DNA of 64,000 nt, taken from positions 3,170,522 through 3,234,521 of the forward strand of contig OX638329.1 of the NCBI GenBank assembly GCA_951812755.1, in the 5' to 3' direction. Below, piece after piece: positions 6,441 through 24,826 of this stretch. Origin of the DNA: an uncultured Latescibacterota bacterium (GTDB lineage Bacteria > Latescibacterota > UBA2968). A program made the position numbers and the translations under genes. Every line of letters begins with the position of its first letter. Within the stretch, counting starts at the first letter, position 1. The notes below the pieces were generated by a model, which did not search any database, was not told the DNA's origin, and worked only from the letters and a program-made list of their open reading frames with translations.

Positions 6441-6537
6441 CCTATTTCTCAAAGCTGAGTAAATTTCTCACAAGGGAAGCGTAAATTGGATAGCGGTGAG
6501 GGTTTGTTTTCACAAAAAAATAAGAGGAGCGTTTATT

Positions 6538-6762
6538 ATGCGATCAATTCCTGTAAAATATGAAAACGGTGTCTTCGTACCGCTTGAAACACTGAGGGAA
6601 ATTGATGAAGGAGTCACAGGAGAGGTCTATATTCAAGAAGCGGACAAAGTGGAAGCAATGAAGTCATTTTCATTTTTTGGTCTCTGGAAAGATCGAGAAG
6701 ACATTTCTGATGGTATCTCTTATGTTCGTAACCTCCGTGATCAGCACAGGTATGAGAAATGA
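6538..6762 (+). CDS. Antitoxin of a PIN toxin pair, AF2212/DUF104-like
   Basis: A 74-residue protein beginning MRSIPVKYENGVFVPLETL, the pattern of the AF2212-like (DUF104) antitoxins that sit before PIN toxins: a short beta-rich N-terminus (YENGVFxPLExL) and a charged C-terminus that wraps the toxin. GAGGAG at 6524-6529 is 8 bases before the ATG, which rules out a GTG further upstream at 6496. Its stop overlaps the toxin start (ATGA at 6759-6762), so the two are translationally coupled. By analogy it neutralises the toxin and represses its own operon. Confidence 0.8.
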   Translation: MRSIPVKYENGVFVPLETLREIDEGVTGEVYIQEADKVEAMKSFSFFGLWKDREDISDGISYVRNLRDQHRYEK

Positions 6763-7142
6763 GTGGATTTCTGATTGATACAGACGTTTTGATTGATGTT
6801 TCCAAAGGTAATACCAATGCCGTTAATTTTCTCGCTGGTCTCACAGAGACAATTTCTATCAGTCGAATTTCTGCGACAGAACTTATCGTTGGAGCAAGAG
6901 ATAAACGAGATCAACTTGCGATTGAAGACTTTATTGCTCACTACACAATCAGAGAGCTACATAGAAGCACTGGTATCAGGGGATACAATCTCTTAATAGA
7001 CTATACTTTATCGCAGGGATTGACAATTATGGATGCACTAATCGCAGCTACTGCCATTGAGCATGATCTGACGCTTGTTAGCAAAAATGAAAGGCATTTT
7101 CGGCATATTCAAAGTTTAGAATTTTTCAGAGCAAGATATTGA
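6759..7142 (+). CDS. vapC: PIN-domain ribonuclease toxin, VapC family
   Basis: A 127-residue PIN domain, the full length of VapC toxins. The family acts as a Mg-dependent ribonuclease on RNA such as tRNA or rRNA when the antitoxin is lost; the actual target cannot be read here. Acidic active-site residues are visible: Asp7 (FLIDTDVLID), Glu41 (SATELIVG) and Asp92 (LTIMDALIAATA). Coupled to the upstream antitoxin by a 4-base overlap. No sign of damage. Confidence 0.9.
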   Translation: MSGFLIDTDVLIDVSKGNTNAVNFLAGLTETISISRISATELIVGARDKRDQLAIEDFIAHYTIRELHRSTGIRGYNLLIDYTLSQGLTIMDALIAATAIEHDLTLVSKNERHFRHIQSLEFFRARY

Positions 7143-7199: not shown

Positions 7200-9602
7200 T
7201 TACTCTACAATGCGAAAATAGACGTATTTCCTATCCGTCTGATTAGTCTGTTTGTCCTTTGCCAATACGGTTAGTTGATAAATCCCTTCAGGTACCTGGT
7301 TCACATCGATCTGCAAATACGTGAAATCATCTTCTCGATTGCCTTCGTAATCGGCTGTTACGGTTCGCGCCAAATCGCCATCTTTTGATCGCTTGATCTT
7401 CAAGCCTTCGGCGGCAATGTGATGGACTTGGCCTCCACTCGTATAAACCTTCGTCTCGCCCCATATATCGCTATCGGGAAATATGCTACTGATCCCATCG
7501 CTATCCTGAGATTGACCGGTCTGCAAACCCTCGGAAGCGATGTAATATCCTTGTCCACTCCGCAGATCAATCTCCGTTTTACCCATCGTATCAATCAGTT
7601 TTTGAGAGGCAAACAATGTGGGCGAGAGGGTATCTACCTCTGGTTTGCCGATGGTATAGGAGATCTCATACTGGGTATTGCCAAAGTCATCGCGTTGGAG
7701 ATCATACAGTTCCAGATAGATAAAGACTGATTCAGACGGTGAAAATGTGCGGATAGGGTTGGGGGTGATGACCAGGTCGTCACGACTTTCTGGCAATGCT
7801 TTTCGCGCTTGAATATTGCTGCCGACGAGCAGATCACTCAGACGAAAGGTCTCATCATCATAGACATACTGCTCCTGGTCGCGTGCGATACCAATCGCGC
7901 CAGATGTCTGGTCCATTAATTCCACTGAAAAACGGTAATTGCCTTGAGGGATGAATAACATACGCGAGACCAACAGGTGATCTTTTCGGTGCCTCGCGGC
8001 TGCGCTTTGTGTCGGTTTCTGTGACAGTAGTGTTGAACTCTCGGATTTGCGTTTGAAGCTCACAGATTTGCGATAGTTATATACATCATTCCAGTGCTCA
8101 TCAAACAAGAACATGCCATCCCAAAAACTCACTTCGCCAGTTTCGAGGTTGGTTGTTAGTCGGTCTTTTGGAATCATATAGCTGAGTTCGATTCGTACGC
8201 TGTCTCGTTCTTCAAAAGTTGCAACCTGATAGGGCAGGGTGTATTTTCGATTGAGATACGGATCGACAAAGCGTTGGGCCATTTTTTTGAAGGTATGATG
8301 TGATGCTTCTTCATAGGCCCAAAAATATTTGGGCGGAGAAGATTGTCTCATTGCAGAATCTATGCCTTCTCGGTAGTCATCAAAGGCACTGTTTTGTACA
8401 TAGATCATCATTGTAGCTATGTCAGGGATGTCAGAGATCAGACTGACACCGTCAAAGGCAAAACCACCACCAAAACTCCAACGATCAGCACCATCGCCAC
8501 AATATACGATCTTGAAGGTCTCATAAAACCAGGTCTCTATCAGATTGGCAGTCTTTCCGCAATTGCCATAACCGGATATCCGCCGTCTATATCTTCCAAA
8601 TTTGATATAAGTCTTCCCCATATCCGTCTGCCAGCCTTCGACATTGGCAGAAAATCGTTTGAACCGCAAATTGCTGTATGCCAGGCGGCCAAAGTGTTCC
8701 ATTTTTCTTTCGTTGAAATCAGATAAATAGAGGGGGTCCTGGCTCTTCCAAAACATCTCGCGTTTCAATAGTATATCAATCGTCTGCGTCGTATCGCGGG
8801 GAGCAGGACCTTCTTGTGGCACAAGCAGATCAATAGATTCGAGCAACTCACGTTCTTCGATACTCATCAAGTCAAGGGCGCGCTGATAGTAGTCATTCGA
8901 GTCATTGAACTCGCCAATCTGATAGGCAGCAAGGCCACAGAATAGCAACGCATTTTTGTCATCTGGGTTTTGCGCGTGCAGGTCTTGCATCAAGGCTTGG
9001 AAGGTGCTCCAATCCTCATCTTCAAAGTAGAGTATGCCTAAAAAATAATACGGTTTCTGATTGGTCGCATCCAATTGGATACTTTTTCGCAAGACATGCT
9101 CCGCCTCTTGTTTGGCCTCTTGAGCATATTTCCTAAAATCTCGACGTTCATCTTTTATTGCCAGAAACTCGTACACCTGATACATACCCGCACCATCCAG
9201 GGCTACCGTATTGTCCGGTTCCTTTTCGCTCACGTCCTCGTATTGATTCAATGCCCGTGACCGAAAGCCCTGTGCCCACCAGATTTTTCCGCGTGTCAGC
9301 CGATATTCAGCGTTATTAGGGTCAATAGCGATAGCATGCTGTATCATCCGCATTGCGCGCTGGCGGTCATTCACAGTATTGGCTTGTAAATACAGGTTAG
9401 CCAATGCGTTGTAGGCTGGGGCATACTCGTCGTCGCGTGAAAGGATGACGCGGAATGCCTCGACACTTTCCTTCCGAGTCACCTTGCCGACTTGCTCTAC
9501 TGCTGCCTGAAACAGCGCATCTATTGTGGTTTTTCCTCTGGACAAGCCAGAACCAGAGAGACTGGTCAGCGTAATCAGTACAATATGAATTGTGAATCGC
9601 AT
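7200..9602 (-). CDS. TPR and GWxTD-domain secreted protein, copy 1
   Basis: An 800-residue protein of unknown biochemical role. A hydrophobic N-terminal segment follows MRFTIHI (export signal). Residues about 45-260 hold TPR-like helices (for example AYNALANLYLQA, YYFLGILYFED, NALLFCGLAAYQIGEF). The GWxTD motif is GWQTD at 323-327, followed by TYIKFGRYRRR, and beta-rich C-terminal repeats carry a GYYIASEGLQTG/HHIAAEGLKIKRSKDGD pattern. The start at 9602 has GGAAG just upstream; an earlier in-frame ATG at 9674 would overlap the preceding sensor gene and puts a charged stretch before the signal. It follows sensor gene copy 1 by 46 bases. Paralogues at 14144-16441 and 21351-23819. Confidence 0.85.
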   Translation of the reverse strand: MRFTIHIVLITLTSLSGSGLSRGKTTIDALFQAAVEQVGKVTRKESVEAFRVILSRDDEYAPAYNALANLYLQANTVNDRQRAMRMIQHAIAIDPNNAEYRLTRGKIWWAQGFRSRALNQYEDVSEKEPDNTVALDGAGMYQVYEFLAIKDERRDFRKYAQEAKQEAEHVLRKSIQLDATNQKPYYFLGILYFEDEDWSTFQALMQDLHAQNPDDKNALLFCGLAAYQIGEFNDSNDYYQRALDLMSIEERELLESIDLLVPQEGPAPRDTTQTIDILLKREMFWKSQDPLYLSDFNERKMEHFGRLAYSNLRFKRFSANVEGWQTDMGKTYIKFGRYRRRISGYGNCGKTANLIETWFYETFKIVYCGDGADRWSFGGGFAFDGVSLISDIPDIATMMIYVQNSAFDDYREGIDSAMRQSSPPKYFWAYEEASHHTFKKMAQRFVDPYLNRKYTLPYQVATFEERDSVRIELSYMIPKDRLTTNLETGEVSFWDGMFLFDEHWNDVYNYRKSVSFKRKSESSTLLSQKPTQSAAARHRKDHLLVSRMLFIPQGNYRFSVELMDQTSGAIGIARDQEQYVYDDETFRLSDLLVGSNIQARKALPESRDDLVITPNPIRTFSPSESVFIYLELYDLQRDDFGNTQYEISYTIGKPEVDTLSPTLFASQKLIDTMGKTEIDLRSGQGYYIASEGLQTGQSQDSDGISSIFPDSDIWGETKVYTSGGQVHHIAAEGLKIKRSKDGDLARTVTADYEGNREDDFTYLQIDVNQVPEGIYQLTVLAKDKQTNQTDRKYVYFRIVE

Positions 9603-9648
9603 TCTCTTCCTTTTTCTTTTGCTAATACTGTGAATAGTTTTCGCCCTT

Positions 9649-12600
9649 TCAGTTTTTAGCTGGAATAGGCCCATTGGTCAATAACGCCTTCACAGCGGTT
9701 TCAACGCGATCTCCGCGCAGATTCGGCGCGTTGATGACGCCATTTTGGTTTACCAGAAATGCCGATGGAATACCCCATACGCCGTAGGATTTTGAAATTG
9801 TTCGCGCCTTTTCTTTGTCAAATACCTGCACATAGCTCAGCTTTTCTTTTTTGACAAAATCTCGCAGTGCTTGCTCATCGTGATCCAAACTCACACCCAC
9901 GACTTCCAGACCCTGATCTCGATATGTTTCAGCAATTCTTTTGATCGTCGGAATCTCATCGACGCACGGGGGACACCACGTTGCCCAAAAGTCGATCAAC
10001 ACGGCTTTTTTGTTCCGGTAATCTGATAGCCGGAATGTTGATCCATCCAACCGTTTGGCCTCAAATTCCGGTGCCATATCTCCCAAGCTCAAAGTCGAGC
10101 GTTCCTCCATTTCCAATTCCGCTATATAACGCAATTCTTTTTTATTCGTTAGATCAATCGTATCGACTTTGCTCCAGTGTTTTCTACCAGAACCGAGGTG
10201 GTCAGTTTTGCGAAACCTAATGGCAATCCGCGCAGAAGGCAGACCGCGCAATCCAAACCGTCCCTCTTCGTCTGTTTCAGTACCGCCTAATGAGACAAGA
10301 TTTTCAGGATCATCTGCTAAAATATTGGGGCTTACATAAACATCTGAAACAGGCTGTCCGTTATAAGTTGCAATACCTGTAAGTTGCGCGTCTCCCAGGG
10401 GTTCAAAGTTTAGCGTCATATCGCGGTCTTCGATTACCACTGTCCGAGATTGACCAGAGTGATGTATTGTTATCGTGTGACCATCTATTTCCATTTCTTC
10501 GGGCTTGGGGCCGCTCATGAAAATGCCATATTTCCCCGGCTCCAGATAGTCCAAACGATATGCACCATTGGCATCTGTACGGTCTGTTTTCGGAAAAATA
10601 CGACCACTTGATCTTTTAATTGGAAAGGCCGTGATTCTTAACCCTTCTACAGAACCGTCATTCAGGGATACCACACCTGAAACAGAATACACATCGCTCG
10701 GGGGTTCAAAGTTCAACGTCACATCGCGGTCTTTGATTACCAGCGTCTGAGATTGAACAGGGTAATATATTGTCTCCGGGTGCCCATCTATTTCCTTTTC
10801 TTTGAGTAAACTCATGGAAATGCGATATTCTCCTGGCTCCAGATCGTCTAAACGATATGTACCATTGGCATCTGTCTGATCTGTTTTTGGATACACAGGT
10901 TCATTTGATCTTTCAACTGGAAAAGCTCTGATTTCCAGCCCTTCTACAGAGTCTTTTTTTAGGGATACCACGCCTGAAACAGAATACACCCGGAAACGCT
11001 TTACCGGGATATCTATATCCATCACTGCTTGACCTTCGTCGTCAATTTTGAGCTTTATTGTACTATCGGCAGAGACAATTTGCTGATTTATAATTCCGAT
11101 ATCGGAATGGGTTACCCAGATATGACCTTTATGTACATCTATATTCTCTAAAATAAATAAACCCGACGTATCGGTATAGGTATTGCGGTGAAAGGGGAGG
11201 GGAGGTGGTGCTGTATATTTAGCACGAGGCATCGGGGGGCGGCCAAAGGCAACACGCGCCCTTGCAACGGGTTGATCGGACTCATCGACAACGCGACCGC
11301 GCAGGGTTATTCCCTTTTTCAAAGCTATATTTATCTGGCCTTCGACTGCATTTTCAACTGTTAGTGCGGTTTGTGCATATCCTTTTGCAGCGACTTCAAA
11401 AGTAGCCTGTGGCCCCGCGACCTGCCAGCCTTCAAATTTTCCATTGGCATCTGTAGTTAAAACCTGGGGAGATAACCGTTTATCTCTTGAAGTGTCATCT
11501 GAAATCACCACGACAGCATTAGTAATTGGATTATTGGATGTATCGAGCACGCGCCCGGATATGCGGCGCGAGTTGAGCAAGAGCAGATCGACATTGTCGA
11601 TTTCGCGTTCAGATTCTGCATTGACAGTCACAGGATCCGTCGCATTTTTGGATGCAATCCGCATGCGATATATGCCCGGGGTGACCTCAACGCGATAGCG
11701 GCCATCTTCATCTGTCTTGGTTCCTGCGTGTACCTCGCCATCGTCGTATTCAGCCCATATTCCCATATTTGCTACGGGTTGACCATCGCGCTGACCGATC
11801 ACTTTGCCTGAAATTGTTGTCAGGTGATCAGTAGGGGGCTTATAAGATGCAGTGCCAGAGATATCAAAAGAAAAAGAGCCATCTCCTTTTTCTATTAAAC
11901 TTTCGATAAAAATGCTGGGAATGCCATGCCTGCCCGTCGAACGCAACCACATTCCATCTTTATAGCGCATCAAGCCTCTGGCTTCTACCACTTTATGGTC
12001 ATCTTGATGCGTGCCAAACCACAAATCGCCGTTTTCGGTTTGCCAGATATTTCGAGAAGCGCGAATGGGCAATCCCGCATGCGCATCGTGGTATGTCCAG
12101 GTTGTGCCGTCAAAGCTGGAAATCCCGCCTCTGCTCCGCGTTATAGTGCGTCCCCGATGTGATCCATGTACGGCCCAAAGCGTGCCTGCTTGATCGTAAA
12201 ATAGCTCATAGATCTTGCGACCCTCGTACACATGGGCACTGCGTATCTTTTCAACGGGGATATTATCGACAAGGTGAGATGTCCATTTCCCATCTTTGTA
12301 ATAGCTCAATCCGCGAAGGGTGGCGATCCACACGCCGCCTTTGGGGTCGGCGACTACATCGTAAACTCGATTGTGAATCAGTCCATCTTCCACAGTATAG
12401 TTATGCCATGTTTTGCCATCAAAGTGCAAAATTCCATTTCCGCCCTGGATTTGATCCAGGCCACCGCGTGCTGTAATATTTTTACTGCTCTTGCGGATCC
12501 ATATACCGCCATCTGTATCTTCGGCAAATTTTGATCCGACACCGTGTTCTCCCAAACCCGTTTTGTTATCCCATATCCGCCATACCTTTCCATTGAAGTT

Positions 12601-14028
12601 CGTGATAACCAGACGACCTTTATATACCCCGGCAAACCACAGGGAGCCATTGTGTGCCTGCATAAAGGCACTGATGCTCACCAATGAACCACCCTCTGGC
12701 AATGTGAACTTTTGCCACGCATCTCCATCTTGCAAATAAAGTCCATCACTGCCGTGCCACCACCTGCGTCCATCGTGCATTTTTAGTGGAAGCGTATGGT
12801 GTGACACTTTACTGGTATCAGTTATAGCAACACCACCTTCAAATATAATTTTATTATTATGATCTACCTTTGAAGTACTCAGGCTGCCGATGATTATCGC
12901 CCCACCGATAAATACCACTGCCATCGCGAGTGCCGACAAGCGACCAACTCGCGGAGACACATGGCCGTCCAGGGTGATAATGCGATTGACCCGCGCCATG
13001 ACCTGAGTTCTTCGCGCCATGTCCATGCTCAGAGCCATCGCAGGACGAGGATGTAGTTGGGTCGCCACATTCAGGAGTGTATCCGCATAGCTTTCAGAAT
13101 TGCCAGTTGTCGTCACTGTCCAATCATCGCAGGCTTGTTCTTGAACTTCAAAGAGCAGATGCTTGACGCGGTGGAATAGGGGATTGAACCAGTAAAACGC
13201 CATGCCTACCATTGCCAGCAAACGATACAGGCAATCCCATCGCTTGACGTGAATGAGTTCGTGAATCAAAATTGATTCCAACTGATAGCGCGATTCGACC
13301 ATAGGCGCTGGCAATACGACGACTGGCTTCAGGAATCCTACCTGAGTTGGACTGCTGATTTTGTCACTGACGGATAGTGCGACGGATCGCCGAATATCCA
13401 ATTGATTCTTTAAGACCTGTAAATCATTTTGAAGCTGTTCGTCTTCACAGGGCAATAGAGATCGACGAAACTTGCAAACTATTATTAGACAATAGATTAC
13501 CCGAATCAATAAAATCAATACGCCAACAGCATAGACCACTATCACACCATACAAAGCCTGTGCTGAAGTGATTTTATCCAGTATATGGGCTGTCCAATTG
13601 ACCGATTTTGTCTCGGCATTTTTTTCGAAAACAATCTGTGCAGATGAGGGAGATACGAAGTCTTGAGATAATTCAACATCCTGGGATGGAGTCTTATCAG
13701 ACACCGTTTGTTGCTTCAATGCAGATGTGGATTTTGCCAGAGGTGTATCAGGGACAACAACAGGTTGAGGAGAAGGAATAGCCTGTTCTGAAGATGGCGA
13801 TAGCGCATCAAATTGAAATCGCAGGGAAGGTAGGCACAAAGACGCGATGGGAATGACCAGCACGCCGATAAGACACCAGCTTAAAAGCAAACTGCGCTTT
13901 GCTGCCTGTCGCGTGCCCAGAAGCCACACAGCAAGCAGAACAAAACCCATAAAGAGGGTCGTCTTGATAGTCGCATTGAGGAGAAAGATAGCAATCGGGT
14001 CCAGGACATTGACCAATGTATCGATCAT
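9649..14028 (-). CDS. Giant BlaR1/M56 sensor-protease fused to propeller, beta-sandwich and TlpA domains, copy 1
   Basis: 1459 residues. The N-terminal part is a BlaR1-type M56 metalloprotease: membrane segments near 12-38, 47-65, 157-185 and 364-385, and HELIH at 256-260 with the third ligand in EQACDD (297-302). After the last membrane segment come propeller-like repeats (about 405-730; GDLWFGTH, GGVWIATLRGLS), then several carboxypeptidase-regulatory-like beta-sandwiches (from about 735; ISGKV...DEDGRYRVEVTPG), and finally a TlpA/ResA-like thioredoxin domain (about 1310-1459) with C1352-P-P-C1355. By BlaR1 topology the protease faces the cytoplasm and everything after residue 385 the periplasm. 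The penicillin-binding sensor of BlaR1 is absent. Preceded by a 38-codon blaI tail with a 4-base overlap; followed by the GWxTD gene. Confidence 0.88.
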   Translation of the reverse strand: MIDTLVNVLDPIAIFLLNATIKTTLFMGFVLLAVWLLGTRQAAKRSLLLSWCLIGVLVIPIASLCLPSLRFQFDALSPSSEQAIPSPQPVVVPDTPLAKSTSALKQQTVSDKTPSQDVELSQDFVSPSSAQIVFEKNAETKSVNWTAHILDKITSAQALYGVIVVYAVGVLILLIRVIYCLIIVCKFRRSLLPCEDEQLQNDLQVLKNQLDIRRSVALSVSDKISSPTQVGFLKPVVVLPAPMVESRYQLESILIHELIHVKRWDCLYRLLAMVGMAFYWFNPLFHRVKHLLFEVQEQACDDWTVTTTGNSESYADTLLNVATQLHPRPAMALSMDMARRTQVMARVNRIITLDGHVSPRVGRLSALAMAVVFIGGAIIIGSLSTSKVDHNNKIIFEGGVAITDTSKVSHHTLPLKMHDGRRWWHGSDGLYLQDGDAWQKFTLPEGGSLVSISAFMQAHNGSLWFAGVYKGRLVITNFNGKVWRIWDNKTGLGEHGVGSKFAEDTDGGIWIRKSSKNITARGGLDQIQGGNGILHFDGKTWHNYTVEDGLIHNRVYDVVADPKGGVWIATLRGLSYYKDGKWTSHLVDNIPVEKIRSAHVYEGRKIYELFYDQAGTLWAVHGSHRGRTITRSRGGISSFDGTTWTYHDAHAGLPIRASRNIWQTENGDLWFGTHQDDHKVVEARGLMRYKDGMWLRSTGRHGIPSIFIESLIEKGDGSFSFDISGTASYKPPTDHLTTISGKVIGQRDGQPVANMGIWAEYDDGEVHAGTKTDEDGRYRVEVTPGIYRMRIASKNATDPVTVNAESEREIDNVDLLLLNSRRISGRVLDTSNNPITNAVVVISDDTSRDKRLSPQVLTTDANGKFEGWQVAGPQATFEVAAKGYAQTALTVENAVEGQINIALKKGITLRGRVVDESDQPVARARVAFGRPPMPRAKYTAPPPLPFHRNTYTDTSGLFILENIDVHKGHIWVTHSDIGIINQQIVSADSTIKLKIDDEGQAVMDIDIPVKRFRVYSVSGVVSLKKDSVEGLEIRAFPVERSNEPVYPKTDQTDANGTYRLDDLEPGEYRISMSLLKEKEIDGHPETIYYPVQSQTLVIKDRDVTLNFEPPSDVYSVSGVVSLNDGSVEGLRITAFPIKRSSGRIFPKTDRTDANGAYRLDYLEPGKYGIFMSGPKPEEMEIDGHTITIHHSGQSRTVVIEDRDMTLNFEPLGDAQLTGIATYNGQPVSDVYVSPNILADDPENLVSLGGTETDEEGRFGLRGLPSARIAIRFRKTDHLGSGRKHWSKVDTIDLTNKKELRYIAELEMEERSTLSLGDMAPEFEAKRLDGSTFRLSDYRNKKAVLIDFWATWCPPCVDEIPTIKRIAETYRDQGLEVVGVSLDHDEQALRDFVKKEKLSYVQVFDKEKARTISKSYGVWGIPSAFLVNQNGVINAPNLRGDRVETAVKALLTNGPIPAKN
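10390..10989 (-). repeat. Tandem duplication of a beta-sandwich module inside sensor copy 1
   Basis: Two adjacent modules of 99 and 101 residues, both starting VYSVSGVVSL and ending around TLNFEP; the first lies at 10693-10989 and the second at 10390-10692. Sensor copy 2 has one such module. The DNA is still alike in both, for example GAAACAGAATACAC at 10976 and 10679. Confidence 0.85.
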
Positions 14029-14141
14029 GATGTGCCTCCTTTGCGTTGCTTGAGTTTTTCACGCAATCGCGCTACGTCGTCCAAATCTATCTCTTCGTCT
14101 TCAACCAGTCGCGCCAGCAATAGTTTGGTCGAATCGCTCAT
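14025..14141 (-). pseudogene. blaI 3' remnant, 38 codons, still open
   Basis: Reads MSDSTKLLLARLVEDEE and ends KLKQRKGGTS, nearly the same as the last 36 residues of the BlaI at 20507-20890 (STELLLARLVEDEE, KLKQRTGGTS). The DNA-binding part is gone: the remnant begins with an ATG two bases after the stop of the GWxTD gene copy 2 (14144). Its TGA overlaps the ATG of sensor copy 1 by 4 bases, as in the intact blaI-sensor pair, so it may survive as a leader peptide that couples translation of the sensor to the gene before it. Confidence 0.85.
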
Positions 14142-14143
14142 AT

Positions 14144-16441: not shown

Positions 16442-16487
16442 TCTCATCCTTTTTCCTTGTGCCAATACTATGAATAGTTTCATCAGT

Positions 16488-19400
16488 TCAGTTTTTAGCT
16501 GAAATAGGCCCATTGGCCAATAACGCCTTCACTGCCGCTTCCGTGCGAGTTCCACGCAGCTTCAGCGCGTTGATGACGCCATTTTTATCTATCAGAAATA
16601 CCGATGGGATGCCCCAGACACCGTAGGATTTTGAAATTGTCCGCGTCTTTTCTTTCTCAAATACCTGCACATAGCTCAGTTTTTCTTCTTTCACAAAATC
16701 TCGCAGTGCCTTCTCTTCGCGATCCAAACTCACGCCCACGACTTCCAATCCCTGATTGCGATAGGTTTCGGCAATGCTTTTGATTGTCGGAATTTCATCA
16801 ATGCACGGTGGACACCACGTTGCCCAAAAATCGATCAACACGGCTTTTTTGTCTCGGTAATCTGCGAGCCGAAATGTTGAACCATCCAGCCTCTTGGCCT
16901 CAAATTCGGGTGCGATATCTCCCAGGCTCAAGGTTGGACGTTCCTCCATTTCCAATTCTGCTATATAACTCAATTCTTTTTTATTCGTCAGATCAATCCT
17001 ATCGACTTTGCTCCAGCGTTTTCCACCAGGACCGAGGTTGTCTCTTTTGTAAAATCTGATGGTAATCCGTGCAGAAGGCAGACCACGTAATTCAAACCGG
17101 CCCTCTTTGTTTGTTTTTTTCCCTTCTATTGAGACAAAATTCTCAGGATCCTCGCCTATAATATGGACGCTTATGGCAACATCTGAAACGGGCTGTCCCT
17201 TGTAAGTTGCCACACCTGTAATTCGCGCATCGCCCAGAGGCTCAAAGTTCAATATTACATCGCGGTCTTTGATTACCAGCACCTGAGATTGAACACTGCG
17301 ATGTATTGCGATTGTGCGTCCATCCCTTTCCTCTTTTTCGGGTGCGGTTACGGAAATATGATATTTCCCTGGCTCCAGACCCTCCTGAAGATATGCACCA
17401 TTAGCGTCAGGGTGGCCTACTTGGGGTCTGGATTCTGCGCCATTAAGGGCAATCGTTCTGACCGTTAGCCTTTCTACGGGTACACCAGTTAGCGATACCC
17501 TGCCTGAAATAGAGTACAGACGCAAACGCTCTACGCGGATATCTATTACATCATCGGCAGGTGTAACTTTTTGATTCACCATTCCGGTCTCGGGATGATT
17601 CACCCAGATGTGACCACCCGCTACGTCATTTAGAGTGAACAAACCCGACGCATCCGTATAAGTATTGCGCTGGAAGGGCAATGCGGGCAATGTATATACT
17701 TTCTTTTCAGGATTCGGCGGAGGTCCAGGACCAACGCGCGCCCAGGCAATGGGTTTGCCCAACTCATCCACAACGCGACCGCGAAACATCATTCCTTTTT
17801 TGAGACTAATCACTACTTGCTCTTCAATGGCATTTTCAACTTCCCGCACGATTTGTGCGTATCCTTCTGCTGCGACGTCAAAAGTAGCTTGTGGTCCCGC
17901 AACCTGCCAGCCTTCAAATTTTCCATTGGCATCTGTGGTCACGATCTGGGGAGATAATCGTCGATCGTCTAAAGAATCATCGGAAATCACCACAACAGCA
18001 TTGGCAATTGGATTATCGAATTTGTCACGTACGAGACCGGATATGCGGCGCGAGTTGAGCAAGAGCAGATCGACATCTTCAATTTTACTCTCGGATTTTG
18101 CCTCAACGGTCACGGGTTCAGCCGCATTCTTGGACGCGACCCGCACGCGATATACGCCCGGGGTGACTTCGACGCGATAGCGGCCATCTTCATCTGTCAT
18201 GGTTCCTGCATGCACCTCGCCATCGTCGTATTCAGCCCATATCCCCATATTTGCTATGGGTTGGCCATCGCGCTGATCGATTACTTTACCAGATATTGTT
18301 GTCAGGTGATCGATAGGTGGCTTATAGGATACAATACCAGAAACACCAAGGTAAAAAGCCCCATCGCCTTTTTCAACCAGACCCCATACAGAATCGCGGG
18401 GAATGCCGTGTTTGCGCGTCAATCGCAACCACATCCCATCTTTATACCGCATCAGACCTTTTGTCTCTACATCCCGTTGGTCACCTTGATGCGTGCCAAA
18501 CCACAGATCGCCATTTTCCGTTTGCCAGATATTTCGAGACGCATTTATAGGCAGTCCATCATGTGCATCGTAGTGTGTCCATGCTGTGCCGTCAAAGCTG
18601 GAAATCCCTCCTCTGCGCCGCGTTATGGTGCGCCCAATAACCGATCCATGCACGGCCCAAAGCGTGCCTTTTTCGTCGTAAAATAGCTTATAGATCTTGC
18701 GGCCATCATATATATTCCCATTACGCACGCCCTCTATGGGCACGCTATCGACAATATGAGAGGTCCATTTTCCATCTTTGTAGTGGCTCAATCCGCGAAG
18801 GGTTGCGATCCACACGCCGCCTTCGGAATCGGTTTCCACATTGTAAACTCGATTGTGGATCAATCCATCTTCCACAGTATATTTGCGCCATACTTTGCCA
18901 TCAAAATGCAAGACGCCGTTTCCGCCTTTGAAGCGATCGGGGCCTCCGTGTGCTCTGATATTTGAAAAGCTCTGGATAACCCAGATACCGCCACCATCAT
19001 CTTCGGCAAAATCATATCCAGGGGTGATTTCTCCCAGACCCGTTGTTTTTGAATCCCATACCTGCCATGTCTTTCCGCTAAAGTTCGCGACAATTGGCCT
19101 ATTTTTATATATACCGGCAAACCACATTGAGCCATTGCGCGCTTGCATAAAGGCACGCATCTGGTCGAATGAACCATCTTCCGGCAATGTGAACTTTTGC
19201 CACGTATCTCCATCCTGCAAATAGAGACCATTCGCGCCGCGCCACCACAGGCGACCATCGCGCATTTTCATCGGAAGTGCTCGCTGCGATACGTCGCTGG
19301 TATCGGTTATGGCAATTCCGCCCTCAAATACAATTTTTTTATCATTGTGATCGACCTTTGAAGTGGTCAGGCTGCCAATGACGGTCGCTCCACCGATAAA

Positions 19401-20510
19401 TACCACTGCCATTACAAGTGCTGACAAGCGACCAACGCGCGGAGACACATGGCCTCCCAGGGTGATAATGCGATTGACCCGCTCCAGGACCTGAGTTGGT
19501 CGCGCCATGTCCATGCCCAAAGCCATCGCAGGACGAGGTTGCAGTTGGGTTGCCACATTCAGGAGCGTGTCCGCGTAGCTTTCAGAATTGCCAGTTGTCG
19601 TTACTGTCCAATCATCGCAGGCTTGTTCTTGAACTTCAAAGAGCAGATGCTTGACGCGGTGGAATAGGGGATTGAACCAGTAAAACGCCATGCCTACCAT
19701 TGCCAGCAAACGATACAGGCAATCCCATCGCTTGACGTGAATGAGTTCGTGTATCAAAATTGATTCCAACTGATAGCGCGATTCGACCATAGGTGCTGGC
19801 AATACGACTACTGGCTTCAGGAGTCCTACCTGAGTTGGACTGCCGATTTGGTCACTGATAGATAGTGCGACGGATCGCCGAATACCCAATTGATTCTTTA
19901 AGACCTGTAAATCATTTTGAAGCTGTTCGTCTTCACAGGGGAATAGAGATCGATGAAACTTGCAAACCATTATAAGACAATAAATTATCCGAATCAGTAA
20001 AACCAATACGCCAATAGCATAGAGTACGATCACACCATATAAAGCATGTGCTGAAGTGATTTCATTCAGTATATGGGCTGTCCAATTGACTGATTTTGTC
20101 CCGGCATTTTTGGCGAAAACAATTTGTGCGGGGGAGGGGGGTACGAAGTCTTGAGATAGTTCTGGGTTTTCTGAAAACGCCCTATCAGATACTCTTTGTT
20201 GATTCAATGCAGGTGTGGATTTTGTCAGAGATGTCTCAGGGACAACTACAGGTTGGGGAGATGGAATAGCCGATTCCGAAGGTGGCGATGGCGCATCAAA
20301 TTGAAATCGCAGGGAAGGTAGGCACAAAGACGCGATGGGAATGACCAGCACGCCGACAAGACACCAGTTCAAAAGCAAACTGCGCTTTGCTGCCTGGCGT
20401 GTGCTCAGAAGCCACACGGCAAGTAGAACAAGACCCATAAATAGGGTGGTCTTGATAGTCGCATCGAGGAGAAAGATGGCAATGGGTTCCAGTACAGGTG
20501 TATCGATCAT
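16488..20510 (-). CDS. Giant BlaR1/M56 sensor-protease fused to propeller, beta-sandwich and TlpA domains, copy 2
   Basis: 1340 residues with the architecture of copy 1: M56 protease membrane domain with HELIH at 254-258 and a conserved EQACDD, last membrane segment near 366-385, propeller-like repeats, carboxypeptidase-regulatory-like modules (one fewer than copy 1) and a C-terminal TlpA-like domain with C1233-P-P-C1236. The N-terminal 350 residues are almost identical to copy 1, whereas the periplasmic part has drifted more, as expected if the sensing part is diversifying. Its ATG overlaps the blaI stop (ATGA), so repressor and sensor are made together. In the known BlaR1/MecR1 systems the M56 domain leads to cleavage of BlaI; the same wiring is inferred here. 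Confidence 0.88.
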   Translation of the reverse strand: MIDTPVLEPIAIFLLDATIKTTLFMGLVLLAVWLLSTRQAAKRSLLLNWCLVGVLVIPIASLCLPSLRFQFDAPSPPSESAIPSPQPVVVPETSLTKSTPALNQQRVSDRAFSENPELSQDFVPPSPAQIVFAKNAGTKSVNWTAHILNEITSAHALYGVIVLYAIGVLVLLIRIIYCLIMVCKFHRSLFPCEDEQLQNDLQVLKNQLGIRRSVALSISDQIGSPTQVGLLKPVVVLPAPMVESRYQLESILIHELIHVKRWDCLYRLLAMVGMAFYWFNPLFHRVKHLLFEVQEQACDDWTVTTTGNSESYADTLLNVATQLQPRPAMALGMDMARPTQVLERVNRIITLGGHVSPRVGRLSALVMAVVFIGGATVIGSLTTSKVDHNDKKIVFEGGIAITDTSDVSQRALPMKMRDGRLWWRGANGLYLQDGDTWQKFTLPEDGSFDQMRAFMQARNGSMWFAGIYKNRPIVANFSGKTWQVWDSKTTGLGEITPGYDFAEDDGGGIWVIQSFSNIRAHGGPDRFKGGNGVLHFDGKVWRKYTVEDGLIHNRVYNVETDSEGGVWIATLRGLSHYKDGKWTSHIVDSVPIEGVRNGNIYDGRKIYKLFYDEKGTLWAVHGSVIGRTITRRRGGISSFDGTAWTHYDAHDGLPINASRNIWQTENGDLWFGTHQGDQRDVETKGLMRYKDGMWLRLTRKHGIPRDSVWGLVEKGDGAFYLGVSGIVSYKPPIDHLTTISGKVIDQRDGQPIANMGIWAEYDDGEVHAGTMTDEDGRYRVEVTPGVYRVRVASKNAAEPVTVEAKSESKIEDVDLLLLNSRRISGLVRDKFDNPIANAVVVISDDSLDDRRLSPQIVTTDANGKFEGWQVAGPQATFDVAAEGYAQIVREVENAIEEQVVISLKKGMMFRGRVVDELGKPIAWARVGPGPPPNPEKKVYTLPALPFQRNTYTDASGLFTLNDVAGGHIWVNHPETGMVNQKVTPADDVIDIRVERLRLYSISGRVSLTGVPVERLTVRTIALNGAESRPQVGHPDANGAYLQEGLEPGKYHISVTAPEKEERDGRTIAIHRSVQSQVLVIKDRDVILNFEPLGDARITGVATYKGQPVSDVAISVHIIGEDPENFVSIEGKKTNKEGRFELRGLPSARITIRFYKRDNLGPGGKRWSKVDRIDLTNKKELSYIAELEMEERPTLSLGDIAPEFEAKRLDGSTFRLADYRDKKAVLIDFWATWCPPCIDEIPTIKSIAETYRNQGLEVVGVSLDREEKALRDFVKEEKLSYVQVFEKEKTRTISKSYGVWGIPSVFLIDKNGVINALKLRGTRTEAAVKALLANGPISAKN

Positions 20511-20890
20511 GATGTGCCTCCTGTGCGTTGCTTGAGTTTTTCACGCAATCGCGCTACATCGTCCATGTCTATCTCTTCGTCTTCAACCAGTCGCGCCAGC
20601 AAGAGTTCGGTTGATCCGCCAAATAGTTTTTGTATAATGTGCTTCATCGCCGATGATTGAACGCTTTGCTGTTCGATCACAGGTCGGTACACATTGGCGC
20701 GTCCTTGCTTTTCGTGCGCCACATAGCCTTTGTCTTCCATGATCTGTAAGAGTGTGCGAATGGTTGATCCTTCTAACCTGTTGGGTAATTTTGCCTGTAT
20801 CACCTCGACAGTCGCTTCTTTCTGTTGCCAGAGTACCTGTATGAGTTCTATTTCACGAGTGGTCAATCCCTCTTGTCGCAGTCTTGCCAT
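20507..20890 (-). CDS. blaI: BlaI/MecI-family transcriptional repressor
   Basis: 127 residues, the family length. A winged helix-turn-helix occupies the first 75 residues (LTTREIELIQVLWQQ, GSTIRTLLQIMEDKGYV), followed by a helical dimerisation tail (KLFGGSTELLLARLVEDEE). Family members bind dyad operators as dimers and are removed by cleavage when the partner membrane protease is triggered. AAGGAG lies just before the ATG. The gene overlaps sensor copy 2 by 4 bases. It is the only intact blaI for two sensor genes in the window. Its promoter is at 21186-21214, separated from the gene by a mobile palindrome at 20909-21135. Confidence 0.93.
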   Translation of the reverse strand: MARLRQEGLTTREIELIQVLWQQKEATVEVIQAKLPNRLEGSTIRTLLQIMEDKGYVAHEKQGRANVYRPVIEQQSVQSSAMKHIIQKLFGGSTELLLARLVEDEEIDMDDVARLREKLKQRTGGTS

Positions 20891-20908
20891 TTTTAGCTCC
20901 TTTTATTT

Positions 20909-21135
20909 ACTGATGTTACGCATGTCAGACGTTTTGTCATGCTGAGCGGAGTGGAACGGAGCCGAAGCATCTGTTCCACCTGCGCTATGAGTAGATGAAC
21001 TGCTACGCAGTCATGCTCGATTTACTCGCCTTCATACCCCGCTCCTTCGACTCCACTGCGCGGAGTTTATCTTGAGCGAAGCCGAAAGGCTCAGAATGAC
21101 AGGCGCATTATATTGTGCCTATGCGTAACATCAGT
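20909..21135. mobile_element. MITE-like palindromic repeat, copy A
   Basis: Ends are a perfect 15-base inverted repeat: ACTGATGTTACGCAT at 20909-20923 and ATGCGTAACATCAGT at 21121-21135. Inside, GTCATGCTGAGC near the left faces GCTCAGAATGAC near the right. TATTTA flanks it on both sides (20904-20909 and 21136-21141). No coding capacity. It lies between the blaI promoter and the blaI ribosome-binding site. Related copies at 37624-37805 and about 49551-49677. Confidence 0.82.
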
Positions 21136-21155
21136 TATTTACTTGAATGATACCA

Positions 21156-21171
21156 TGCGAAATAATTAGCA
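21156..21171. promoter_or_regulatory. Candidate BlaI operator, blaI promoter, downstream site
   Basis: TGCGAAATAATTAGCA, a dyad with the pattern TGC-n-AA-n-TA-n-TT-n-GCA. It lies about 8-23 bases after the predicted transcription start. An identical 16-mer is at 23871-23886 in the same position relative to its own promoter. Confidence 0.6.
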
Positions 21172-21185
21172 TATCAGTTTTCAGA

Positions 21186-21214
21186 AAAATATCCTATTAA
21201 AAATTCGTTGTCAA
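21186..21214 (-). promoter_or_regulatory. Promoter of blaI and sensor copy 2
   Basis: Minus-strand TTGACA (21214-21209), 17-base spacer, TATTTT (21191-21186). The surrounding 140 bases are homologous to those at 23869-24009. Confidence 0.75.
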
Positions 21215-21222
21215 GCCCAAAT

Positions 21223-21238
21223 AGCGAAAAAATTAGCA
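21223..21238. promoter_or_regulatory. Candidate BlaI operator, blaI promoter, upstream site
   Basis: AGCGAAAAAATTAGCA, 14 of 16 bases as in the downstream site, 67 bases from it, just upstream of the -35 box. Confidence 0.5.
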
Positions 21239-21277
21239 GTGTTTTTAAATGCACAGAAGGTTGTAGTTGACTCAAAA

Positions 21278-21308
21278 ATAAAAAACCGCCCGTTGTTGCT
21301 GGGCGGTT
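21278..21308 (-). terminator. Intrinsic terminator after GWxTD copy 3
   Basis: AACCGCCC (21284-21291) pairs with GGGCGGTT (21301-21308); on the minus strand a T-run follows. It separates the GWxTD copy 3 transcript from the blaI promoter. Confidence 0.85.
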
Positions 21309-21350
21309 GGGACGAATATCAAGACACAACCGGCGAATTGGTATCGTTCT

Positions 21351-23819
21351 TCACTTTACAACCCGAAAATAAACGTATTTCCTATCCGTCTGCTCTGTTT
21401 GCTTGTCCTGTGCCAATACCGTTAATTGATAGATCCCTTCAGGCACCTGGTTCACGTCGATCTGCAAATACGTGAAATCATCTTCTCGATTGCCTTCGTA
21501 ATTGGCTGTGACTGTGCGGGTCAAATCGCCATCTTTTGATCGCTTGATCTTCAAGCCTTCGGCGGCGATGTGATGCACTTGACCACCACTCGTATAAACC
21601 CTCGTCTCGCCCCATATATCGCTATCGGGAAATACGCTATCGAGCACATCGTCATCCTGTGATTGCCCGGTCTGCAAATCCTCGGCAGCAATTTGATCTG
21701 TTTGTTCACTATGCAGAGCAATCTCTGTTTTTTCCATCGTCTCAATCAGATCTTGAGAGGCGAATAATGTGGGCGATAGCGTATCCACCTCTGGCTTGCC
21801 GATAGTGTAGGAGATCTCATATTGCGTGCTGCCAAAATCGTCGCGTTGAAGATCATACAGTTCCAGATAGATAAAGACGGGTTCAGATGGTGAAAATGTA
21901 CGGACGGGATTGGGAGTAATGAGCAGGTCGTCACGGCTTTCTGGCAATGCTTTCTTCGCTTGAATATCGCTGCCGACGAGCAGATCACTCAGATGGAAGG
22001 GCTCCTGGTCATACAAAAATTGTTCCTCATTGCGTGCAATACCAATTGCGCCGGATGTCTGATCCAATAATTCCACAGAAACATGATAGCTGCCTTGAGG
22101 TACAGACAATGTGCGCGAGATCAACAGGTGATCGTTGCGATGTCGTGCAGCAGCATTGGAGGCTGGCTTCTGCGGCGGCAATGCAAAACTCACGAATTTG
22201 CGATAGTTATACACATCATTCCACTGTTCATCAAACAAGAACACCCCATCCCAAAAACGCACCTTGTCCGTTTCGGGATTTTCTGTTAATCGGTCTTTGG
22301 GAATCATATAGCTGAGTTCGACCCGCATGCTGTCTCGTTCTTCAAAGGCGGCGATCTGATGGGGAAGAGTGTATTTGCGATTGAGGTAAGGATCGACAAA
22401 GCGTTGGGCTGTTTTCCGGAAGATATGATGCGGGGCTTCTGTCAATATAGATGTAGGTGGAATCATGGAACCCGGTGATATTCTCATCATAAAATACGGT
22501 CGTATCCTCTTAGCATCATTCTCTGCTCTCTTCGTGATCGTAAAACCACTGGTTTCTACTGCAGGCACCGTGCTTGGGAGGTAGCCTACAGCACCGCCGC
22601 AAAAATGCCAGCTATCATCCGTAGTGCCACAAAATTTGAACTGAAAGTTTTCGTAATACCAGAACTCCATCATTGCGGCATCCAGGATCTTTTCAGAATC
22701 CCATGTCCCTTTATAGGTTGTCACGCGCCGTCTATATCTTCCAAATTTGATATAGGTCTTTCCCATATCTGTCTGCCACCCCTCAACATCATCCAAAAAT
22801 TGCCTGAACCGCAAATTTGCATAAGCCATGCGACCAAAATGTGCCATCTTTCTTTCATTAAATTCTGACAAATAGAGAGGATCCTGACGCTTCCAAAACA
22901 TCTCGCGTTTCAATAATTCATCAATTGCCTGCGTCGTATCGCGGGATGCATGCTCTTCTTCAGGCACAAGCAAATCAATTGATTCGAGCAACTCACGTTC
23001 TTCAACACGCATCAAGTCAATGGCGCGTTGATAGTATTCATGTGAGTCATTGAATTCGCCAATTTGATAGGCGGCAAGCCCACAGAACAAGAGCGCATTT
23101 TTGTCATCTGGGTTGTGCGCGTACAAGTCTTGCATCAAGGCATGAAACGCATTCCAGTTCTCATCTTCAAAGTAGAGGATGCCCAGCAAATAATAGGATT
23201 GCTGATTAGTGGCATCCAATTGGATGCTTTTTCGCAGGACTTGCACGGCTTCTTGTTTGGATTCCTGGGCAAAGGTCTTGAAATCTTTTATCCTGGGCTT
23301 CATTGCCATTTCCTTGTAATGTGGTACCCTGGACCCCATGTCCATCTCTTTCAATGGCGCTCTTCTATCTTTCTGTGATAGAAAATCATACACCAAGAAC
23401 ATACCTATACTATTGAGGACATCCGTATTTTTCGGATGCTTTTTCATCACGTTCTTGAATTGGTTCAATGCGCGTGACCGAAAGCTCTGTGCCCACCAGA
23501 TTTTTCCGCGCGTTAGCTGATACTCAATATTGTCGGGGTTAATTGCGATTGCCTGCTGTATCATCCGCATTGCGTTCTGCCTACCATTTATGCTGTAGTC
23601 CAACAAATACAGTTTGACCAATTCATTATATGCAGGCGCATAATTTTTGTCCTTGGAAATAATCTCCTCGAACGCCTTGATGCTTTCCTTTTGGCTTACC
23701 TTCCCGACTTGCTCCATTGCATTCTGAAACAGCGAGTCTATTGTGGTTTCCCCTTTGGACAAGCCAGAACCCAAAAGGCAGGCCAACGCGATCAATCCGA
23801 TATGGGTTGTATATCGCAT
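21351..23819 (-). CDS. TPR and GWxTD-domain secreted protein, copy 3
   Basis: 822 residues, the third paralogue. Export signal after MRYTTHIGLIAL, TPR-like helices, GWQTD at 347-351 followed by the TYIKFGRYRRR stretch, and the same beta-rich C-terminal region ending RKYVYFRVVK. It carries an extra 20-odd residue insertion (around residues 150-180, KEMDMGSRVPHYKEMAMK) that the other two lack. AAGGA 7 bases upstream picks the ATG at 23819 over an in-frame one at 23834. Unlike copies 1 and 2 it has its own promoter (23901-23929) with two candidate operators, and its own terminator, so it can be expressed apart from a sensor gene. Confidence 0.85.
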   Translation of the reverse strand: MRYTTHIGLIALACLLGSGLSKGETTIDSLFQNAMEQVGKVSQKESIKAFEEIISKDKNYAPAYNELVKLYLLDYSINGRQNAMRMIQQAIAINPDNIEYQLTRGKIWWAQSFRSRALNQFKNVMKKHPKNTDVLNSIGMFLVYDFLSQKDRRAPLKEMDMGSRVPHYKEMAMKPRIKDFKTFAQESKQEAVQVLRKSIQLDATNQQSYYLLGILYFEDENWNAFHALMQDLYAHNPDDKNALLFCGLAAYQIGEFNDSHEYYQRAIDLMRVEERELLESIDLLVPEEEHASRDTTQAIDELLKREMFWKRQDPLYLSEFNERKMAHFGRMAYANLRFRQFLDDVEGWQTDMGKTYIKFGRYRRRVTTYKGTWDSEKILDAAMMEFWYYENFQFKFCGTTDDSWHFCGGAVGYLPSTVPAVETSGFTITKRAENDAKRIRPYFMMRISPGSMIPPTSILTEAPHHIFRKTAQRFVDPYLNRKYTLPHQIAAFEERDSMRVELSYMIPKDRLTENPETDKVRFWDGVFLFDEQWNDVYNYRKFVSFALPPQKPASNAAARHRNDHLLISRTLSVPQGSYHVSVELLDQTSGAIGIARNEEQFLYDQEPFHLSDLLVGSDIQAKKALPESRDDLLITPNPVRTFSPSEPVFIYLELYDLQRDDFGSTQYEISYTIGKPEVDTLSPTLFASQDLIETMEKTEIALHSEQTDQIAAEDLQTGQSQDDDVLDSVFPDSDIWGETRVYTSGGQVHHIAAEGLKIKRSKDGDLTRTVTANYEGNREDDFTYLQIDVNQVPEGIYQLTVLAQDKQTEQTDRKYVYFRVVK

Positions 23820-23870
23820 TGTTATTCCTTTCAAAAGAGAGTGGTCTTTTTATCAATCTGAGTGATTTTG

Positions 23871-23886
23871 TGCGAAATAATTAGCA
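23871..23886. promoter_or_regulatory. Candidate BlaI operator, GWxTD copy 3 promoter, downstream site
   Basis: TGCGAAATAATTAGCA, identical to 21156-21171, about 8-23 bases after the predicted start of transcription. Confidence 0.6.
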
Positions 23887-23900
23887 TATAAATTTCCAGA

Positions 23901-23929
23901 AAAATAGCCAATTAAAAACTCGTTGTCAA
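23901..23929 (-). promoter_or_regulatory. Promoter of GWxTD copy 3
   Basis: Minus-strand TTGACA (23929-23924), 17-base spacer, TATTTT (23906-23901). Start predicted near 23894, giving a leader of about 75 bases. Confidence 0.75.
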
Positions 23930-23936
23930 GTTCAAG

Positions 23937-23952
23937 TACGAAATAATTAGCA
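23937..23952. promoter_or_regulatory. Candidate BlaI operator, GWxTD copy 3 promoter, upstream site
   Basis: TACGAAATAATTAGCA, 15 of 16 bases as in the downstream site, 66 bases from it and just upstream of the -35 box. Confidence 0.55.
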
Positions 23953-23978
23953 ATAAATTTTAAATACACTGGAGGTAT

Positions 23979-24009
23979 AAAAAAAACCGCCCGTTGTTGC
24001 CGGGCGGTT
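23979..24009 (-). terminator. Intrinsic terminator after the lone tlpA gene
   Basis: AACCGCCCG (23985-23993) pairs with CGGGCGGTT (24001-24009), with a long T-run on the minus strand. Sequence and loop (TTGTTG) closely match the terminator at 21278-21308. Confidence 0.85.
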
Positions 24010-24069
24010 GAATGCATATCAGAAGCTCAGTATAGTAGAAAGCCATACACCATAATTTTATTTATCCGA

Positions 24070-24618
24070 TCAATTAGCTGAAATAGGCGCATTGGTCAAT
24101 AACGCCTTCACAGCCGCTTCTGTGCGATTGCCGCGTAGCTTCATCGCGTTAATGACGCCATTTTTATCTATTAGAAATACCGATGGGATGCCCCATACAC
24201 CGTAGGATTTTGCAATTGCGTCTGATTTTTCTTTGTCAAATACTTGCCCATAGCTCAACTTTTCTTGTTTCACAAAATCTCGCAGTGCCTGCTCATCCCG
24301 GTCCAAACTCACGCCTACGACTTCCAATCCCTGATTGCGATAAGTTTCAGCAATGCTTTTGATTGTCGGAATTTCATCAATGCACGGTGGACACCACGTT
24401 GCCCAAAAATCGATCAACACGGCTTTTTTGCCCCGATAATCTGCGAGCCGGAAGGTTGAACCATCTAACTGTTTGGCCTCAAATTCTGGGGCTGTATCTC
24501 CCACGCTCAAGGTCGGACGTTCCTCCTTACAGCCAATTGCCACTGTTCCGGCAATAAACATTACCGCGATCACCAGTGCGGACACGCGACCATTTTGATT
24601 GAACCGTGTGTTATTCAT
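24070..24618 (-). CDS. TlpA/ResA-like thiol-disulfide protein, probable lipoprotein
   Basis: 182 residues. A hydrophobic N-terminal segment (VSALVIAVMFIAGTVAIGC) ends in a possible lipobox Cys30; the rest is a TlpA-like thioredoxin domain with C76-P-P-C79 and the GIPS cis-proline region. The domain is nearly the same as the C-termini of the two giant sensors, and the N-terminal segment (GRVSALVIAVMFIAG) resembles their last membrane helix (VGRLSALVMAVVFIGG). It therefore looks like a sensor gene from which protease, propeller and beta-sandwiches were deleted, although the reverse (a source for the fusion) cannot be excluded. Expected to act in the periplasm on protein or small-molecule thiols. 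AGGAGA precedes the ATG; promoter at 24674-24702. Confidence 0.88.
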   Translation of the reverse strand: MNNTRFNQNGRVSALVIAVMFIAGTVAIGCKEERPTLSVGDTAPEFEAKQLDGSTFRLADYRGKKAVLIDFWATWCPPCIDEIPTIKSIAETYRNQGLEVVGVSLDRDEQALRDFVKQEKLSYGQVFDKEKSDAIAKSYGVWGIPSVFLIDKNGVINAMKLRGNRTEAAVKALLTNAPISAN

Positions 24619-24751: not shown

Positions 24752-24780
24752 TTGCAGAGCGAGTAAAAATTGGCTATATT
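24752..24780 (+). promoter_or_regulatory. Promoter of the family B polymerase gene
   Basis: TTGCAG (24752-24757), 17-base spacer, TATATT (24775-24780). Start predicted near 24787, 40 bases before the ATG at 24827; this argues against the earlier in-frame start at 24770. Confidence 0.6.
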
Positions 24781-24826
24781 TAAACAGTTGCTTTCCCCTT
24801 CTCCCGCAACAAATTGGAGCAACACA

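Follow-up and report, generated by a model that had tools for sequence, protein, structure and literature searches.

A candidate BlaI/BlaR1-type relay with a changed sensor and a predicted secreted-protein regulon in an uncultured Latescibacterota bacterium

In the BlaI/BlaR1 and MecI/MecR1 systems of staphylococci and Bacillus licheniformis, a BlaI-family repressor adjoins an M56 gluzincin membrane protease that carries a penicillin sensor, several operators surround an autoregulated promoter, and the targets are beta-lactamase or PBP2a. Relays of the BlaR1 type are known almost exclusively from resistance to beta-lactams. Here, we describe a pair of this type in a 64,000-nucleotide stretch of contig OX638329.1 (the window; GenBank assembly GCA_951812755.1) from an uncultured Latescibacterota bacterium, in which a protease and repressor of the same kinds are combined with another sensor and are linked to secreted proteins by a predicted operator. 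The locus (7200-24618) is transcribed from the minus strand, on which all of its genes, promoters and putative operators lie, in the order P0007 TlpA, GWxTD C, blaI, receptor B, GWxTD B, receptor A, GWxTD A. We consider it probable that the locus encodes an antirepressor relay of the BlaI/BlaR1 type whose sensor has changed and which switches a secreted regulon. The open-access literature searched yielded no paper dealing with either GWxTD or a fusion of M56 to TlpA, and nothing relevant on BlaI/M56 with TlpA, TonB or propeller domains beyond reviews and the BlaR1 structure.

The repressor gene, blaI (P0005, 20507..20890), encodes a 127-aa winged-helix protein of the BlaI/MecI/CopY family (Penicillinase_R, PF03965, 2.3e-29) which matches MecI (1sd6) at 3.5e-11. 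It shares four bases (20507-20510) with the gene for receptor copy B (P0002, 1340 aa, 16488..20510), an overlap already described in an earlier note on this DNA. Pfam, alignments and fold searches divide receptor B into an M56 part (residues 1-395), a beta-propeller (396-735), a series of CarboxypepD_reg modules (736-1185) and a TlpA domain (1186-1340), with HELIH at 254, EQACD at 295 and WCPPC at 1232. Receptor copy A (P0001, 1459 aa, 9649..14028), 71% identical to copy B in the main alignment, has the same architecture with more CarboxypepD_reg modules (HELIH at 256, WCPPC at 1351). The open reading frames (ORFs) of the earlier note were found where it had placed them, and its description of these four domain types in one chain was borne out by Pfam, NCBIfam and the fold matches given below.

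Peptidase_M56 was detected by Pfam in both giant proteins (E 3.5e-35 and 5.1e-35), and the M56 part could be aligned with the cryo-EM structure of BlaR1 (8exp, E 3.5e-10). The zinc site and near-strictly conserved residues of BlaR1 are H201, H205, E242, D246, D210 and Y261 (PMC9834060). The BlaR1 catalytic set (H201, E, H205, D210, E242, D246, Y261) corresponds here to H254, E255, H258, D263, E295, D299 and Y312, all of which are invariant in 11 aligned sequences, one of them at only 34% identity. The predicted gluzincin active site, HExxH ... ExxxD plus the counterparts of D210 and Y261, is complete. The hydropathy peaks fit the topology of BlaR1, with four transmembrane helices, a cytoplasmic protease and an outer C-terminal part: a pair of predicted helices is followed by a loop and a third helix, then by the protease segment, and a final helix precedes the outer domains. 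The structure model of this part has low confidence. Pairwise ratios of nonsynonymous to synonymous change (dN/dS) were 0.14-0.40 in each of the four domains, all of which are, by this measure, under purifying selection. Because dS was uneven among domains, it points to recombination between copies. For example, between G006 and G005 (loci L068 and L069; G000-G010 denote the 11 genomes of the window's genus and L-numbers denote loci) it was ~0.04 in the M56 part and 0.26-0.49 in the other domains (0.49 in CarboxypepD_reg), a contrast that suggests a recent event of recombination or transfer.

Where BlaR1 and MecR1 have a penicillin sensor, the receptors carry the propeller, the CarboxypepD_reg modules and TlpA. 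Reg_prop matches in the two proteins were weaker than those of the protease (2.3e-10 and 2.1e-07, whole-protein values), and the AlphaFold model is confident across much of the propeller (model residues 402-725). The best fold match was 3v9f (Z 20.9, rmsd 3.9, 268 aligned residues), with 4a2l, a heparin sensor, at Z 19.8; both are extracellular domains of Bacteroides hybrid two-component systems. Other propellers score nearly as high. The modelled propeller fold is therefore firm and the ligand is a guess. The Bacteroides hybrid sensors (BT4663, BT3049, BT4673) likewise join a Reg_prop-type extracellular propeller to a transmembrane signalling module, but a single propeller is present here, and a protease-repressor relay replaces the histidine kinase and response regulator; the Pfam scan of the receptors showed neither a histidine kinase domain nor a receiver. 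CarboxypepD_reg modules (5 and 4 copies in the two proteins) were recognized by Pfam alone, and the fold matches of the CarboxypepD_reg plus TlpA model all fell on the thioredoxin domain. This C-terminal domain belongs to AhpC-TSA/Redoxin/Thioredoxin in Pfam (best fold match 4grf, Z 17.4), and both WCPPC cysteines and the GIP cis-proline are invariant in 13 sequences. It has the thioredoxin fold, WCPPC and GIP cis-Pro motif of the TlpA/ResA/DsbE oxidoreductases, which are free or membrane-anchored alone, whereas here the domain is fused to an M56 receptor. No transpeptidase/beta-lactamase domain of the penicillin-binding sensor type was matched in the receptors by Pfam, NCBIfam or fold searches, in line with the claim of a BlaI/M56 signalling pair lacking this sensor. 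As the defining sensor was looked for and is absent, the predicted pair resembles BlaI/BlaR1 in its working but is not a beta-lactam receptor.

Upstream of blaI, the inverted repeat TGCKAA-N4-TTMGCA flanks TTGACA-N17-TATTTT on both sides, with a start-to-start distance of 60-67 bases in an alignment of eight genomes. In the window, the distal putative operator O1 (GCTAATTTTTTCGC) is at 21224..21237, the promoter at 21186..21214 and the proximal putative operator O2 (GCTAATTATTTCGC) at 21157..21170. GWxTD C has its own pair, with O1 (GCTAATTATTTCGT) at 23938..23951, the promoter at 23901..23929 and O2 (GCTAATTATTTCGC) at 23872..23885. The double dyad around a sigma-70-type promoter was seen before blaI in 9 genomes. 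Both dyads before blaI are GCTAATTTTTTAGC in G008 and GCGAATTATTTCGC in G004; the members of each pair being identical within the genome, arms and sites therefore change together and remain paired and palindromic. When up to 2 mismatches were allowed, the 16-mer occurred 12 times in G000, 7 of them exact (~0.003 exact expected by simple base counting), and the reversed control gave 2 and 2. Ten of the 11 genomes of the genus contained the double-site pattern, and none of 10 others from the order did; the control count was zero everywhere but in G008 (1 and 1). We also tried the loose single site GCKAA-N4-TTMGC as a genome-wide marker and rejected it (32 places versus 64 for the control); the 16-mer and the double site are specific.

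Behind 27 distinct double sites we found blaI (9), the GWxTD gene of the locus (4), genes for TlpA-dockerin proteins (7) and a 1040-aa TPR-GWxTD type (3), and one each of WD40, leucine-rich repeat (LRR)-dockerin, a MacB-type permease and a contig end. These 27 are a list and not a frequency, because much of the DNA was collected for containing the site. The regulon search in G008 returned the autoregulatory pair only, and the operator pair was not found upstream of TlpA-only remnants. The double site suggests control of a small set of secreted proteins that includes LRR and WD40 types. Separately, tandem clusters of secreted LRR and TlpA proteins with common dockerin-like EF-hand segments were noticed in G000 and G004 (L137, L139, L142).

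Gene order, domains, the complete set of M56 catalytic residues, the paired sites and the genes that follow each pair are observed directly; binding of these sites by BlaI, its cleavage, the induction step and the nature of the ligand are inferred. At rest, a BlaI dimer would sit on the two dyads around the promoter and repress its own operon (blaI, M56 receptor, GWxTD, second receptor, GWxTD), together with the neighboring GWxTD gene and a few distant promoters of secreted proteins (TlpA-dockerin, LRR-dockerin, WD40, TPR-GWxTD). A factor outside the inner membrane would then be bound by the propeller/CarboxypepD_reg array, or would alter the redox state of the terminal TlpA, and the last transmembrane helix would pass this change on to the M56 site in the cytoplasm. 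The protease would remove BlaI by proteolysis, such that the regulon is expressed and more receptor is made. As in BlaI/BlaR1 and MecI/MecR1, several operators, here predicted, surround an autoregulated promoter, but the operator and the scissile residues of BlaI differ, and the predicted targets are secreted repeat proteins instead of beta-lactamase or PBP2a. Should BlaI indeed control eukaryotic-like repeat proteins (WD40, LRR and the like), their expression could be tested by way of a single repressor, a single protease and a 16-base site.

The best matches of the propeller are hybrid two-component sensors, and a heparin sensor is among them; our tentative first guess at the signal is therefore a glycan of the host or matrix, while a thiol state comes second and seems unlikely. 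At least one genus mate belongs to the jk18x7 series of metagenome-assembled genomes, which comes from an Ircinia sponge, and Ircinia symbionts abound in eukaryotic-like proteins, among them WD40 and LRR types, thought to aid host evasion (PMC9531527). It is conceivable, though doubtful, that this transmembrane protease-repressor switch allows a symbiont of sponges to detect a ligand of the host or of a surface by a propeller resembling glycan sensors, and to turn on eukaryotic-like repeat proteins (LRR, WD40). If so, the switch would be the first candidate in this lineage for regulating proteins of this kind. The locus is of interest for its changed sensor and because it is predicted to be linked to secreted, eukaryotic-like proteins of a symbiont.

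Several observations weigh against a BlaI/BlaR1-type relay with a changed sensor. The known BlaI scissile bond, N101-F102, aligns to R100-L101 here; this bond is a trait of the staphylococcal and Bacillus members and not of the whole BlaI family. BlaI/MecI operators are of the TACA/TGTA type, from which the operator here differs. Because of this, the predicted binding by BlaI is argued from position and autoregulation only. AlphaFold confidence is low across the M56 part, which is interrupted in G009 and G010, where assembly error or decay may be responsible. Finally, several M56-less copies keep the outer part without the protease.

The relatives show how the parts of the locus vary. We found the complete fusion in no genus but that of the window; in the four other genera of the family, no M56 protein was detected at E 1e-10. 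Uninterrupted full-length receptors are present in G000 (two), G004, G005, G006, G007 and G008, the genes run off contigs in G001 and G003, and the 4-base overlap of blaI and the M56 gene is kept in relatives with an intact junction. In G002, blaI-M56 runs into a different outer part that is joined just after the last transmembrane helix and matches a secreted TlpA protein adjoining another BlaI-M56 pair in G000. M56-less copies of G007 and G010, P0007 and the G002 remnant have a lipobox-like AIGC or TIGC where M56-bearing copies read IGS. Because of the G002 swap and the M56-less lipobox-like copies, the outer part is, as judged from these genes, a module that undergoes exchange and is used by itself as well.

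These copies bear directly on a possible alternative which we rank below the relay, namely that the outer part acts mainly as an enzyme (a thiol-disulfide oxidoreductase at the surface, carried by a scaffold for binding) and that M56-BlaI does no more than set its amount; the operon would then be a self-regulated effector and not a receptor for a ligand from outside. M56-less copies keep TlpA, with propeller and CarboxypepD_reg as well in G007 and G010 behind the lipobox-like N-terminus; a TlpA is still kept after the swap in G002; WCPPC and the cis-Pro motif are invariant; and other genes under the predicted operator encode TlpA proteins. This explanation leaves unaccounted for the strictly kept M56 active site and the LRR, WD40 and GWxTD genes of the predicted regulon. 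The TlpA domain might instead, in line with the thiol signal proposed in the earlier note, be a periplasmic redox sensor whose thiol state gates the M56 protease. It is C-terminal in every full copy, after the G002 swap and in M56 proteins of another family in the phylum, f6. We regard this as rather unlikely, as many BlaI-M56 receptors of the phylum have CBM9, PD40 or TonB_C modules and no TlpA, and the M56-less TlpA copies have no protease to gate.

A further possibility is that the double dyad is not a BlaI operator, being either a shared promoter block that gene duplication and gene conversion have spread or a site bound by a different regulator. The stretch from -35 to -10 between the dyads is also alike among unrelated genes, as copying would give, recombination is visible in the uneven dS, and the double sites were largely gathered by searching for them. 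However, the dyads stay palindromic and paired when changed (G008, G004), the pair is found only in the genus with this blaI, and two dyads around one promoter directly before blaI are the layout expected of autoregulation, which makes this explanation improbable. Least likely by far is a decaying tandem repeat with no present signalling function: the blaI stub, the truncated third copy, the interrupted M56 in G009 and G010 and the fragments in G003 and G007 would fit it, but dN/dS is 0.14-0.40 in all domains, the catalytic residues are invariant and receptors are intact in G004, G005, G006, G007 and G008.

The relay, our preferred reading, also has to be placed among other BlaI-M56 pairs. M56 proteins (E <=1e-10) occur in 35 of 64 Latescibacterota genomes, and most of the genes inspected in the phylum come after blaI, often with a 4-base overlap; over all loci examined, from several phyla, a BlaI match lies close upstream of 64 of the 90 M56 ORFs. 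Like the receptors of the window, these proteins have large exchangeable outer modules: CarboxypepD_reg plus TlpA (L281, L282, L283, L292), CarboxypepD_reg plus CBM9, PD40 plus FlgD/Por_Secre_tail, or TonB_C repeats. Propeller, CarboxypepD_reg and TlpA in one chain are seen only in this genus. Because the outer parts vary so widely, the system of the window is, by this survey, one variant of a modular receptor class, and exchangeable outer modules are a general theme in the phylum. The co-occurrence check proposed in the earlier note showed that the BlaI-M56 order is kept in the genus and that M56 plus CarboxypepD_reg plus TlpA beside BlaI recurs in another family of the phylum. The earlier note spoke of a candidate new signalling system; to call the system new is an overstatement, since exchanged outer modules on BlaI-M56 pairs are widespread across Latescibacterota. 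A second BlaI-M56 pair of this genome (L086 8070-10829) has an outer part with a string of TonB_C-like repeats, recognized by eye, and six TonB_C matches were counted in a comparable M56 protein of G017 (L285).

The TPR-GWxTD proteins A (P0003, 7200..9674), B (P0004, 14144..16513) and C (P0006, 21351..23834) all score above the TIGR04514 cut-off (2.9e-12, 1.6e-13 and 1.8e-13, respectively), and the GW.TD motif is present in all three (GWQTD at 349 in B). The claim that such a gene always follows holds for the window (3/3) and fails in relatives. A GWxTD gene is at the locus in seven genomes and missing from G004, G002 and G008 (3 of 10 relatives), where both flanks are present and BlaI-M56 is kept. 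With 41 GWxTD matches dispersed over many contexts in this genome, we rejected an obligate partner; of the two roles proposed earlier, output is favored by the shared operator pair. The proposed 46-base gap depends on the start of protein B. It is ~46 bases after the M56 stop if translation begins at the MRF methionine (~16441), the likely start, whereas the longest ORF overlaps the stop.

Repeat analysis showed that a unit of ~7 kb is present three times in the window. A remnant of a second blaI (residues 93-127, 91% identical by tblastn; 14028..14132, repeat D15) precedes receptor A; it corresponds to the last 35 codons and lies inside the 115 bases before this gene. P0007 (182 aa, 24070..24618), a TlpA protein and remnant of a third receptor, has an N-terminus resembling the last M56 transmembrane helix fused directly to TlpA, with the lipobox-like sequence AIGC. 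Because of the stub before receptor A and this start of P0007, the ancestral unit was most likely blaI-receptor-GWxTD, with two of three copies trimmed. The earlier note had recorded neither the stub, nor the derivation of P0007 from a truncated M56 fusion, nor the operator pairs. Between the operators and the blaI start there is a 225-bp insertion (20910-21134), bounded by inverted ends (CTGATGTTACGCAT) and accompanied by a duplication of 7 bp (TTATTTA), which is absent from seven aligned relatives. It looks like a non-autonomous transposon (miniature inverted-repeat transposable element, MITE), as DNA related to it gave 59 matches in the genome.

In G000, G002, G004 and G006, the locus is flanked by a family-B DNA polymerase gene on one side and galK/galE-galT on the other. 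In the window, the polymerase-like gene (24770-26953, named by eye) adjoins the locus and is kept across the genus. GalE (UDP-glucose 4-epimerase) and GalT (uridylyltransferase), also named by eye, are apparently joined in one 726-aa chain (2946-5126), an arrangement kept in relatives (L068, L070, L076). A PIN-domain-like (VapC-type) gene is located at 6496-7142, with a short overlapping antitoxin-like ORF before it; a similar short ORF is also present in G002 (L076 12960-13232).

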